In this document: piece by piece, positions 50,704-54,682 of the stretch
Position numbering within the stretch: position 1 is the stretch's first letter
Layout of the letters: every line of letters begins with the position of its first letter
Source: Anaeromicropila populeti
GTDB lineage: Bacteria > Bacillota > Clostridia > Lachnospirales > Lachnospiraceae
Assembly: GCF_900112775.1 (NCBI RefSeq)
Contig: NZ_FOYZ01000003.1
Coordinates: 189,494-253,493 of the forward strand
DNA length: 64,000 nt
Direction of reading: 5' to 3'
The notes under the pieces: model-generated
Seen by the model: the letters and a program-made list of their open reading frames with translations, nothing else
Told to the model about the DNA's origin: nothing
Databases searched by the model: none
Program-made: the position numbers and the translations under genes

Positions 50704-51237
50704 TTATTCCGGTATCTTTTTCCCAGCATACACACTAATATAAGCAATTCCCATTCCCAACGCCATTCCAGCTAATACATCTGTTAAATAATGAACGCCT
50801 AAATATATTCGTGAAAATCCTATTAGTGCTGCAAGGCACAGCGCGCTAATACCATATTTTCTTGGCAACATTAAAAACAGCACCATAGCAGCTGCAAAAC
50901 TAGAGGCTGTATGTCCAGAAGGAAAGGAGTAGCTATGAGGCGCCCTCGTTAAATGCTCCAATTCCTCCATTGCTACAAACGGCCTGGTGCGTGCAAATAT
51001 ATTTTTTAAAAACTGATTCACGACAAACATTTCCAACATAACAGAAAGATTTACAACAAAGCCAACCCTTCTATACTTGGCATAAAAGACAAGTCCAAAT
51101 CCAATTAAAGTCCAAATAATCGCATTATCCCCTAACACCGTAATCATCTGCATGATTTTCGTCAATACTGGAGTCCTTAAGTATTCCTGAATCCATAATA
51201 ATATATTTTGATCCAACTCTGTTATTGTTGTTATCAT
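50704..51237 (-). CDS. PAP2-family membrane phosphatase
   Basis: This encodes 177 residues with five to six membrane helices and the three phosphatase motifs: KNIFARTRPF, YSFPSGHTAS, and SRIYLGVHYLTDVLAG, with the two catalytic His residues and the Arg of motif 1. Members dephosphorylate lipid pyrophosphates such as undecaprenyl pyrophosphate, or phosphatidate-type lipids. The ribosome binding site is weak. It is the last gene of the kinase cluster, 76 bases after the ETxVL-repeat gene. Confidence 0.88.
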   Translation of the reverse strand: MITTITELDQNILLWIQEYLRTPVLTKIMQMITVLGDNAIIWTLIGFGLVFYAKYRRVGFVVNLSVMLEMFVVNQFLKNIFARTRPFVAMEELEHLTRAPHSYSFPSGHTASSFAAAMVLFLMLPRKYGISALCLAALIGFSRIYLGVHYLTDVLAGMALGMGIAYISVYAGKKIPE

Positions 51238-51313: not shown

Positions 51314-51886
51314 TTATTCAATGTTCAAATCCGAATGTATAAATGAAATTTCATTAATAATTACAAACTGCTCTGATATAAATATTTCATCTGACTGCTT
51401 TTCACTTGTATCCCTATTTGCAGATAATTTTTCCGTTCTTGGCAGCTGATCCAGCACAGAGGTTTCATTCCCTCCTAACACTGTAGTCTGACCTTCACCT
51501 AATACAATGGTTTCATTTGTATCTAACACAGCAGTCTCATTTTGCCCTAAAACGGCAGTTTCATTTGCTTCTAACACCGTTGTTTCACTTACTTGGTTTT
51601 CAGATTCCTTCTTTAACTGCTTGGTTGCTTTCTTTAAGCCAGCCGTTTTCCCTTTTAGTTCTTTTGATTTTCCATGTTGCTTTTCCAACCTTCGTACATT
51701 TTCGACACTTTGGCTTTTCTCTCGTATCTGCTGCGTACCTTTTTTAGCTGAAGAACCCGTTAATACACCAATTACTTTCACAATGTGAAGTCTGAAAAAG
51801 AGAATGATTGAAATCATCAAAAATACACCTGCTGCTACTAAACCTGATATGAATAGTAAATTAAATACTTTTGCTTCTTCTGTCAT
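51314..51886 (-). CDS. Membrane-anchored protein with six ETxVL octapeptide repeats
   Basis: This encodes 190 residues. One membrane helix (about 8-33) is followed by a strongly basic, Lys/Gln-rich cytoplasmic segment (45-95). Residues 101-148 hold six tandem repeats of exactly eight residues: ETTVLEAN, ETAVLGQN, ETAVLDTN, ETIVLGEG, QTTVLGGN and ETSVLDQL. A tail with FISEQFVIINEI closes it. Its start is only three bases after the stop of the Ser/Thr kinase, with the phosphatase before that. E-T-x-V-L is the kind of site such kinases phosphorylate and FHA domains bind, so a phospho-regulated scaffold is plausible but inferred. Confidence 0.75.
   Translation of the reverse strand: MTEEAKVFNLLFISGLVAAGVFLMISIILFFRLHIVKVIGVLTGSSAKKGTQQIREKSQSVENVRRLEKQHGKSKELKGKTAGLKKATKQLKKESENQVSETTVLEANETAVLGQNETAVLDTNETIVLGEGQTTVLGGNETSVLDQLPRTEKLSANRDTSEKQSDEIFISEQFVIINEISFIHSDLNIE
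51443..51586 (-). repeat. Six 24-base coding tandem repeats
   Basis: These encode the octapeptides of residues 101-148. The units are similar but not identical at the DNA level, so selection on the protein, not recent slippage alone, seems to keep the period. Confidence 0.85.
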
Positions 51887-51889
51887 TTT

Positions 51890-53725
51890 CTATCGTCCCT
51901 CCCCGCTTGTCACTGTACTGCCCGAATCCTGATTTTCTGACTGTTCTTCAGTTGTTCTTGCAGAATAAGCTGTTACTATGGCATTTTCAGCTTGTACAAT
52001 TGTCTGGCTCAAAAGTTCTGTTACTTCTTTCTGGAGCAATTCATTTGTAACAGTCATATCAGTTAGCTCATTTTTAATACTTGTCAGCATTTCCTCCATA
52101 TCAGTCTGATCAACGCCATCTGTTTTTAACTTATTTGCCCGTTCAAAAATCTGTCCGCATATTTCAGCAAAAAGCCTAATTTTGATAGCATCTTCTCCAC
52201 TTACTTTATCCTGCTCTGACTTTAAAGTTTTCAGATTTTCCCAGAATTCAATATGCTTACCTGCATCTGAACCTTCATATTCAAGCCTTGTAATGTCCTT
52301 ATAATAGCTTCCAATGGCTGAATATAAGCTGGCCTTTCTATAGTATCCGTCTTCTTCTATATCTTTTCCCTGTTCTTCACATATTTTTGTTACATAGTCG
52401 AAAAAAGTAATTGAAGTTTTCTTTTCAACATCCGTTTCCGTTTCCAGATAGAACCATCTTGCTTCTCCAATTTTATAGCATACCTCAATATATTCATCTG
52501 GTGATTCCATCAATCTGGTAAATGGTTTCACTGTCTCAGCATTGCTGAATTTATATTCTTTTGACTTTGAACCTGTTAATTGAATAAATGTATCAATTGG
52601 CTGACTAATTCCTCCTATCCGGCAATACTCAATAATCTGATCCTCCTCCTTTGAAAGAAGCTGATCGCTGGTAAATTGATCGATTAATTGCAGATAAGGT
52701 TCTTTAATTTGTGGTGACAAGGTAATAGCACTTAAATAGCACAAAATAATTTTATCATAGTCAGATGAACCTGCTGCCTCATCCATTAAAACCTCATATC
52801 TGTTTATTTGCAGCTTTTCCTTTTGGCTATAACAGAAAAAGGAAAAAGCCAAAAATGCTAGTGTCAGCACAGCAGGTATAATAAATAATGTCAGCTTTTT
52901 CTTTTGCTCCCTGATATATGCATCATCAAGCTCTTCGTAATGCTCCAAGGCATACATTAATTCTGAACAGGACTGAAACCGGTCTGCCGGATTATTTTGT
53001 GTGCACTTTAATATAATATTCTCCAAACCTTGGGATAAGGAAGGATTCCAGTAGCGTATTGGATACATTTCATATGGCGGATCACTTGGGTTGTGCCCAG
53101 TGATTAAATGATATAAAGTAGCTCCTAAACAATAAATATCGGTTCTGCCATCTGTCTGACCTTGCCCGCCAAACTGCTCAGGTGCAGCATATCCTCTAGT
53201 TCCTAAGCAGGTAGTGTCCTCCAGACTTGTTTTCTTATATTCCCGTGCTGTTCCAAAATCGATTAGCGTTACATCTCCATTGGGCCTTAGCATAACATTA
53301 GCTGGCTTCATATCACGATAAATAATCGGTGGCTTTTGATTATGTAAATAAGATAAAACATCACAAAGCTGCTTTGCCCAGTGAATCACCTCTTCCTGTG
53401 ACAATGCTCCCTGCTCTGCTATCTTATCACTAAGTGGTTTTCCTTCTATGTAATCCATTACAATAAGAAACATTCCGTCAGAATCAATAACGTCTACAAT
53501 ACTAGGCAGGCTTGGATGGTTAAACTTCTTCAACATATCTGTTTCAACAATCAGCCCCTGCTTAATCACTTCAAAATTCCACACGCCATCCTTTCGGACT
53601 TCTTTTATTGCCCACTGCTTATTTGCCTTTTCATTCATGGCAAGGTATACAACACTCATTCCTCCCCGTCCAATAACGTTCAGTATCTTATATTTTCCAT
53701 CAATAATTGAACCTATTTCAAGCAT
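51890..53725 (-). CDS. Membrane Ser/Thr protein kinase without PASTA domains
   Basis: This encodes 611 residues. The kinase domain fills residues 10-265: glycine loop IGRGGMSVVY, Lys41 in WAIKEV, YRDMKPANVM with catalytic Asp138, DFG at 156-158, and GTRGYAAPEQF. One membrane helix lies at 279-300. The outer part (300-611) is helical, with many acidic residues, and lacks the PASTA repeats of PrkC/PknB; I do not recognise it. PP2C phosphatase is encoded 26 bases before and the ETxVL protein three bases after, so the set is one operon. Confidence 0.92.
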   Translation of the reverse strand: MLEIGSIIDGKYKILNVIGRGGMSVVYLAMNEKANKQWAIKEVRKDGVWNFEVIKQGLIVETDMLKKFNHPSLPSIVDVIDSDGMFLIVMDYIEGKPLSDKIAEQGALSQEEVIHWAKQLCDVLSYLHNQKPPIIYRDMKPANVMLRPNGDVTLIDFGTAREYKKTSLEDTTCLGTRGYAAPEQFGGQGQTDGRTDIYCLGATLYHLITGHNPSDPPYEMYPIRYWNPSLSQGLENIILKCTQNNPADRFQSCSELMYALEHYEELDDAYIREQKKKLTLFIIPAVLTLAFLAFSFFCYSQKEKLQINRYEVLMDEAAGSSDYDKIILCYLSAITLSPQIKEPYLQLIDQFTSDQLLSKEEDQIIEYCRIGGISQPIDTFIQLTGSKSKEYKFSNAETVKPFTRLMESPDEYIEVCYKIGEARWFYLETETDVEKKTSITFFDYVTKICEEQGKDIEEDGYYRKASLYSAIGSYYKDITRLEYEGSDAGKHIEFWENLKTLKSEQDKVSGEDAIKIRLFAEICGQIFERANKLKTDGVDQTDMEEMLTSIKNELTDMTVTNELLQKEVTELLSQTIVQAENAIVTAYSARTTEEQSENQDSGSTVTSGEGR

Positions 53726-53751
53726 TTCTTCCTCTCCATAATTCTAAAATT

Positions 53752-54519
53752 TTAATAAGTTTTTATTAGTGCGATCGAAATATTATCCCGTTCCTTACGA
53801 CTCTTGTTCAATTCAATCAAATAGTCAGCATAATGTTCCATATTTTCTACGCTGGTTAGTACATCAGGAGATAGACATTCAAAAATTTCCTCTTGTGTGA
53901 TTTCATGGCGGAATCCATCTGAACAAAGCATATATACTGCATTTCTTTTCACCACTCCACTATAAAATTCAGGACATACACTTTCAGAAGCCCCCACACA
54001 TTGTAATAAAATACTCCTTCTTGGATCAACCTTTGCCTGTTCCTCGGTCAGCCTTCCTCTGGCAATCTCCATTGCAACCACTGTCTGATCTCTTGTAAGT
54101 ACTCTTAACTGATTCTCAATCTCATATAACCTTGTATCGCCAACATGAATAACATAATATTTTTCTCCCATAATAAGCAATGCAGTTATGGTCGTTCCTA
54201 ACCGTATATTACATCTCCGTCCATAATTTTTAATTTTTTCGTTCAACTCACTTAGCATTTCTTCCCATTGGAAACGTATCTTATCTTCACTAATGCCACG
54301 TCTTAAATGATTGGGCAAAACAGTTGTAAACCAGTTTTCAAATGCTCTTATCACTGTTGCACTTGCCACTTCTCCCTGCTCCAGACCACCCATGCCATCA
54401 CAAATAACAGCAAGTAAAATCTCCCCAAAAGAAGTATCTGCAATTTTAATAGAAAGACTATCCTGGTTTTTGTCCTTCACAATACCTTTGTCTGTCTGAG
54501 CTGCTGCCAGAAATTTCAT
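53752..54519 (-). CDS. PP2C-type protein phosphatase
   Basis: This encodes 255 residues of the PPM/PP2C family, the counterpart of the kinase encoded next. Metal ligands are seen in KNQDS (Asp20), ICDGMGG (Asp41 and Gly42), LCSDGFRHE, and ERDNIS near the C-terminus. TDKGIVKDKNQDS at the start resembles PrpC. GGAGG precedes the ATG. It has no signal or membrane segment, so it acts in the cytoplasm. It is the first gene of the kinase cluster. Confidence 0.93.
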   Translation of the reverse strand: MKFLAAAQTDKGIVKDKNQDSLSIKIADTSFGEILLAVICDGMGGLEQGEVASATVIRAFENWFTTVLPNHLRRGISEDKIRFQWEEMLSELNEKIKNYGRRCNIRLGTTITALLIMGEKYYVIHVGDTRLYEIENQLRVLTRDQTVVAMEIARGRLTEEQAKVDPRRSILLQCVGASESVCPEFYSGVVKRNAVYMLCSDGFRHEITQEEIFECLSPDVLTSVENMEHYADYLIELNKSRKERDNISIALIKTY

Positions 54520-54637: not shown

Positions 54638-54682
54638 AAAAATCACAAGAAACTTAAAACTAAGTTCCTTGTGATTTAGATT
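54638..54682 (-). terminator. Terminator of glutamine synthetase
   Basis: On the minus strand AAATCACAAGGAACTTA pairs with TAAGTTTCTTGTGATTT with one mismatch, followed by TTTT. Confidence 0.9.

Follow-up and report, generated by a model that had tools for sequence, protein, structure and literature searches.

A membrane protein with a tandem array of putative phospho-threonine sites, encoded beside a PP2C phosphatase and a membrane kinase in Anaeromicropila populeti and its relatives

FHA domains bind phospho-threonine (pThr) and discriminate against phospho-serine (PMC4037201), often with a preference at the +3 position (PMC4037201, PMC6733907). In DgcB of Bdellovibrio, the tail of the protein itself, with its pThr and hydrophobic residues at +2/+3, binds the FHA cleft (PMC6733907). 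We analyzed a stretch of 64,000 nucleotides of Anaeromicropila populeti (contig NZ_FOYZ01000003.1, positions 189,494 to 253,493; hereafter the window) that holds an operon for a PP2C phosphatase, a membrane Ser/Thr kinase and a small membrane protein with octapeptide repeats, here called K. A search of the open-access literature, with subscription papers outside its scope, found no description of such an array; only the paper on T7SSe, a type VII secretion system (T7SS), covers these components (PMC11217815), and in its accessible part phospho-control of T7SSe is raised as a mere possibility and no threonine motif array is described. We propose, with a probability of roughly three in four, that K is a membrane-anchored pThr array written by the kinase and read by FHA domains, the operon being a membrane pThr switch.

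An open reading frame (ORF) check of the window placed the phosphatase, kinase and K genes consecutively on the minus strand (Table 1), with 26 bp between the phosphatase and kinase genes and 3 bp from the kinase stop to the K start. An earlier note on this DNA, made from the sequence alone, had given this gene order, the 3-bp spacing and six octapeptides of exact period; all of these, and the gene coordinates, were found exactly as it had placed them. K consists of one N-terminal membrane helix, a basic juxtamembrane part (17 K/R vs 6 D/E in residues 33-100), an acidic tail holding the array and a conserved C-terminal end. By the positive-inside rule, the tail is predicted to be cytoplasmic, on the same side as the kinase domain. 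The Pfam scan detected no FHA domain in K, and no Pfam or NCBIfam family scored above cut-off.

The octapeptides, in order ETTVLEAN, ETAVLGQN, ETAVLDTN, ETIVLGEG, QTTVLGGN and ETSVLDQL, start at residues 101, 109, 117, 125, 133 and 141. None of 200,000 shuffles of the tail reached six T-x-V-L motifs (shuffle mean 0.09, maximum 3). Codons of the constant residues vary among the copies (ACA, ACT and ACC for the first Thr; GTG, GTT and GTA for Val), which indicates that the peptide was kept while the DNA drifted. As the +1 residue varies (T, A, I, S), the first Thr, three before the Leu, is the candidate acceptor. The period-24 tandem DNA pattern matched only the window among 61 genomes (its own and 60 relatives), because spacing and codons vary among the relatives; the widespread feature is the amino-acid motif, not the exact octapeptide period.

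We collected 89 orthologous kinase loci by a kinase search in the 60 relatives and a kinase-alignment scan of GTDB species genomes. They are mostly from Lachnospiraceae and other Clostridia, with two from Bacillus. The 80 database loci are the best kinase matches, so that the sample is biased toward close orthologs; the loci are related to one another and the counts given below are not independent events. Gene calls were made by a basic ORF-finding script and may be mistaken for a few of the K proteins. A K-type protein was found 3' of the kinase in 87 of the 89 loci, the remaining two being contig ends. In an alignment of 35 K proteins, both ends could be aligned (the membrane part and the C-terminal F-x-I...I-H-T-D-E), and the middle contained a variable number of T-x-x-L units.

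The K tails were taken from fixed residue 50 onward, which gave 81 non-redundant tails, and Thr-to-Leu distances from -8 to +8 were scanned against shuffles. We observed the following. Leu at +3 from Thr is about 5-fold enriched (364 vs 74 expected). The +2 distance is also raised (207), because units read T-T-V-L or T-x-L-L, and there is no enrichment at +4 or +5. Neither Leu at +3 from Ser (53 vs 58 expected) nor Ile at +3 from Thr (54 vs 55 expected) is in excess. There are 256 copies of the motif T-x-[VLIPM]-L and 3 of its counterpart with Ser, though overall Thr:Ser in the tails is 1070:852; in the neighboring genes, used as a control, the corresponding numbers are 461 and 510. For T-x-V-L against S-x-V-L, the tails hold 150 vs 0 and the 759 neighboring genes 104 vs 140. 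The bracketed motif was picked with the sequences already in view, a choice that affects neither the distance scan nor the Ser control. At least one copy of this strict motif is present in 75 of the 81 tails, with the rest of the tail varying. Thus, the K motifs have the properties of FHA ligands: Thr and not Ser, with a constrained +3 position. A kinase alone would normally tolerate Ser. A Thr-only motif with Leu at +3 is to be expected of an FHA-read site, because the FHA reader would impose such a constraint.

Array size ranges from 0 to 17 copies (median 3). The largest array, with 17 strict motifs, is in a 359-residue K of Bacillus marasmi (locus L119, 9699-10775), and K proteins of loci L067 and L103 carry near-identical tandem copies. 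The last ∼15 residues, F-x-I...I-H-T-D-E-x-I, are conserved in most K proteins; the kinase or the phosphatase might dock at this end.

A gene for an FHA protein is linked to the operon in many relatives. It lies exactly two genes 5' of the kinase, adjoining the PP2C gene, in 54/85 loci, and within the fetched stretch in 59/85. The FHA domain was confirmed by Pfam in all 57 proteins scanned, 26 of which also have Trypsin_2 and 25 DUF6382. The operon FHA proteins themselves carry the motif, mostly in two copies (GETTVL..GETTVL) 10-12 residues apart, the nearer copy being 19-25 residues before the FHA domain. When 46 FHA proteins were aligned, no variation appeared in the Leu of either motif copy, in the second Thr or in G, S, H and N of the FHA domain; judged from these, the pThr pocket is predicted to be largely intact. 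The K motif is present in 52/53 operons with an FHA gene and in 16/20 without (Fisher p 0.018), and motif number does not differ between the two groups (medians 3 vs 2.5). The earlier note had read the repeats as a multi-site substrate or docking scaffold recognized by FHA domains, and these sequence data support and strengthen that reading. The two genomic comparisons it had proposed were also favorable to it: repeat number varies among relatives as given above, and a motif-bearing FHA gene is the usual neighbor of the phosphatase.

Some of the FHA proteins deserve description in their own right. In the product of the trypsin-FHA gene adjoining PP2C in locus L101 (5455-7143), an exported trypsin-like domain is followed by a membrane segment, a pair of GETTLL motifs and an FHA domain on the cytoplasmic side; locus L056 (5461-7140) is another example among the 26 such genes. 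Such a protein is apparently a protease wired across the membrane to threonine phosphorylation, as far as its domain order tells. DUF6382 occurs in 48/61 genomes and is far commoner than the K operon. Outside the operon (L142-L171), 18 of 26 DUF6382-FHA proteins have T-x-[VLIPM]-L before the FHA domain. In the Tad-type DUF6382-FHA proteins, whose FHA domains were found with a profile, the Thr bias is weaker (26 T vs 5 S). The T-x-x-L code may also serve other kinases.

On the reading proposed here, a signal would reach the kinase at its external helical domain, and the kinase would then phosphorylate K in its cytoplasmic tail, at the first Thr of every T-x-V-L unit; the same motif in the FHA proteins is probably also a substrate of the kinase. 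Each pThr-x-x-Leu would be an FHA ligand, and phosphorylated K a multivalent membrane anchor clustering FHA proteins. The K units would compete with the FHA proteins' own linker motifs, for which self-binding in GarA/OdhI and DgcB could serve as a precedent by analogy (PMC6733907). The PP2C phosphatase would reset the K array. In the relatives, the partner would be the FHA protein encoded beside PP2C (trypsin-transmembrane-FHA or DUF6382-FHA), and the T7SSe-like ATPase, which carries FHA too, could be another. More tentatively, the count of pThr-x-x-Leu (1 to 17) might set the number of membrane-clustered FHA partners, K being then a rheostat or condensate-type switch, a widespread multivalent scaffold coupled by lineage to Tad-type pili, T7SS or a transmembrane protease-FHA protein; we offer this as a conjecture at somewhat less than even odds.

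Several points weigh against the proposed switch. Phosphorylation, binding, clustering, the signal and the reader in the window's genome are steps that we infer. The strict motif is absent from 6/81 tails, the only instances of the case (same operon, no threonine in the repeats) that the earlier note had named as contrary to its reading. In 92% of the operon FHA domains, Lys replaces the usual Arg of the pocket, though the charge is kept. The +1/+2 letters of the K motif covary with those of the FHA motif of the same operon (Spearman 0.35-0.58), also beyond kinase distance (partial Mantel r 0.20, 0/2000 permutations), but this covariation is modest and relatedness is not fully removable from it. 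An AlphaFold model of the FHA part leaves the motif region disordered; the model is phosphate-free and hence uninformative on this point. Finally, the operon in the window has no FHA gene: the upstream gene of 703 amino acids and the other neighbors do not encode one.

Four FHA proteins are encoded elsewhere in the window's genome, and choosing the reader among them is a guess. One, a DUF6382-FHA protein encoded last in a Tad-type cluster, has E-S-T-I-V-L before an FHA domain with the same Lys signature, and is the best candidate. Another has A-T-G-V-L (GATGVLG) before its FHA domain and belongs to a cluster that has a PP2C and a kinase of its own; two weaker FHA proteins lie in that same cluster. 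Locus L123 (G000 contig 34, 501-18326), which includes the GATGVLG protein, encodes a kinase, a vWA protein and several proteins with FHA or PP2C domains, as well as a tandem pair of proteins of ∼140 residues, which resemble by eye the tube proteins of a contractile or type VI secretion-like system.

The kinase has its Hanks kinase domain at the N-terminus (residues 12-250) and, by hydropathy, a membrane helix at about residues 276-300. Its C-terminal domain was modeled by AlphaFold as all-helical, with good confidence there, and is predicted to lie outside the cell. The catalytic residues K41, E61, D138, N143 and D156 are invariant in 38 kinase sequences. The Pfam scan showed no PASTA repeats, and NCBIfam PknB_PASTA_kin matches only the kinase domain (208 bits vs a cut-off of 450); judged from these scans and from the all-helical model of its C-terminal domain, it is not a PASTA kinase of the PrkC/PknB/Stk1 type. 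A defense-system assignment was rejected, as the PADLOC matches (PD-T4-6, mad6) are restricted to the kinase domain and look generic. Upstream of the kinase, a PP2C ortholog is present in nearly all relatives, and the phosphatase of the window matches NCBIfam Stp1_PP2C_phos with 5.7e-49, under that model's curated cut-off.

Table 1. Coordinates of the operon and adjacent features in the window
Feature	Position	Strand	Evidence
PP2C/PPM-type Ser/Thr phosphatase, TseF-like, first operon gene	53752-54519	-	Pfam PP2C_2 3.5e-8
Membrane Ser/Thr kinase, TseD-like	51890-53725	-	Pfam Pkinase 3.5e-46
Kinase activation loop D-T-T-C-L-G-T, residues 170-176	53198-53218	-	T171, L174, G175, T176 invariant, n=38
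K (repeat protein), 190 aa, TseK/TseH-like	51314-51886	-	ORF, hydropathy, alignment of 35 K proteins
Six octapeptides [E/Q]-T-x-V-L-x-x-x, residues 101-148, proposed pThr-x-x-Leu sites	51443-51586	-	codon listing, shuffles
Terminator-like hairpin between the upstream 703-aa gene and PP2C	54640-54677	-	17 pairs and a T run
PAP2-family membrane phosphatase gene, 76 bp 3' of K	50704-51237	-	

The hairpin listed in Table 1 is consistent with PP2C as the first gene of the operon. The PAP2-family gene, on the same strand, may be co-transcribed with the operon; in the relatives, it was not seen as the gene next after K.

The activation loop of the kinase bears on what the array does, as its T-x-x-L spacing is that of the array units. 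The array could be a kinase-docking or decoy substrate instead of an FHA ligand, with K tuning the kinase by competing with its autophosphorylation. The units do resemble the loop (E-D-T-T-C-L-G), where T171-x-x-L174-G is invariant in the 38 kinases, and K is always encoded beside the kinase. A docking motif, however, need not be Thr-only, and the exclusion of Ser (256:3) points to a pThr reader; the same motif pair before the FHA domains would also be left unexplained. We therefore consider this explanation unlikely. If the array were only a low-complexity linker that had expanded neutrally, with Thr playing no part, the copy number of 0 to 17 and the near-identical tandem copies in two loci would fit. 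This is, however, very improbable: across families, Thr and the Leu at +3 persist in units that are neither identical nor evenly spaced, Ser does not take the place of Thr, and the repeats of the window differ at synonymous sites.

The genomic setting suggests another possibility, that K is a structural or regulatory T7SS part (TseK or TseH) and the three genes in the window a functionless leftover. One relative (G039, locus L129, 2159-18530) has a T7SSe-like locus: an FtsK/SpoIIIE ATPase with FHA, a small gene of 83 amino acids and two WXG100 genes, together with DUF6382-FHA carrying two TTVL motifs, PP2C, kinase, K and a 164-residue membrane protein, followed by an exported protein of 1915 residues. 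By gene content, this locus appears to correspond to T7SSe as far as the accessible part of PMC11217815 describes it, and by that match the three genes of the window would be TseF, TseD, and TseK or TseH. No WXG100 gene was found in the window's genome (96.9% complete), which would fit a relic, and for this reason we rejected the label of T7SS operon for that genome. No FHA-bearing ATPase of the FtsK/SpoIIIE type lies beside the operon; the FHA frames are 532, 418 and 198 amino acids long, none of ATPase size, and the FtsK/SpoIIIE family was not searched genome-wide. In most loci, however, no T7SS genes are nearby and the block stands alone or near Tad-type genes (18 loci with Tad-type neighbors; a large Ig-like protein in 54). 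The reading frames are intact, the catalytic residues do not vary and the repeats have drifted at synonymous sites; all this speaks against decay, and we consider a relic quite improbable. Other T7SS clusters, in G012 and G002 (L172, L173), show no such array in their gene listing. None of these alternatives explains both the preference for Thr over Ser and the same motif before FHA domains, which the pThr array read by FHA domains would account for.

If this reading is true, it assigns a substrate, a consensus (T-x-V/L-L) and a reader to a kinase group that occurs in many Lachnospiraceae, in other Clostridia and in some Bacillus, and opens threonine phospho-signaling in these bacteria to direct tests. 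It would give a concrete target for the threonine-phosphorylation control of T7SSe suggested in the accessible part of PMC11217815, and would mean that this module of control is also found independently of secretion. With its tandem array on a separate membrane protein, K would also exemplify multivalent pThr-FHA scaffolding in bacteria. The recurrence across many related bacteria suggests a widespread, so far undescribed signaling scaffold.

The kinase-PP2C-FHA logic is shared with GarA/OdhI of Actinobacteria (PknB/PknG/PstP), where a T-rich motif precedes the FHA domain, as in the operon FHA proteins. ETTSVF is the phospho-site motif of GarA. Unlike K, which is membrane-anchored, FHA-free and has many motifs with Leu at +3, GarA/OdhI is small and soluble with one motif. 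In MDC1, SDTD repeats place several short phospho-sites on one scaffold, which is read by the FHA domain of NBS1; that system is eukaryotic and nuclear, with another kinase and motif, and no common descent is implied. The closest solved structures to the operon FHA domains are those of DgcB (PDB 6hbz, 6hc0, 6hc1; E 1e-12; PMC6733907), where the one tail belongs to the FHA protein itself and no multi-site scaffold stands apart from it. Rv1747 of M. tuberculosis with PknF/PstP (PMC9312465) resembles the proposed switch in its FHA domains and disordered linker and in membrane-protein clustering that is promoted by the kinase and reversed by the phosphatase; its FHA domains and linker are, however, in one ABC transporter, and a separate small membrane protein with a short tandem array is lacking. 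In gene content, the loci come nearest to T7SSe, which in the accessible part of PMC11217815 shares a PPM phosphatase, a membrane kinase, a DUF6382-FHA protein and a large Ig-like exported protein (TseF, TseD, TseJ, TseK, TseH, TseI), and, as in the operon of the window, a single-helix protein with a short unstructured cytoplasmic part beside the phosphatase and kinase. Differences are that the operon of the window and most loci lie outside any T7SS, that many FHA partners are trypsin-transmembrane-FHA and not DUF6382-FHA, and that the DUF6382-FHA gene is absent from the operon locus of the window and present elsewhere in the genome. The earlier note had stated that no scaffold of this form was described; the module itself is recognizable as TseF-TseD-TseK/H from what is accessible of that paper, so that the statement holds for the motif array only. 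Kinase-phosphatase-FHA signaling is already known, and the novel part is the tandem multi-site membrane scaffold.

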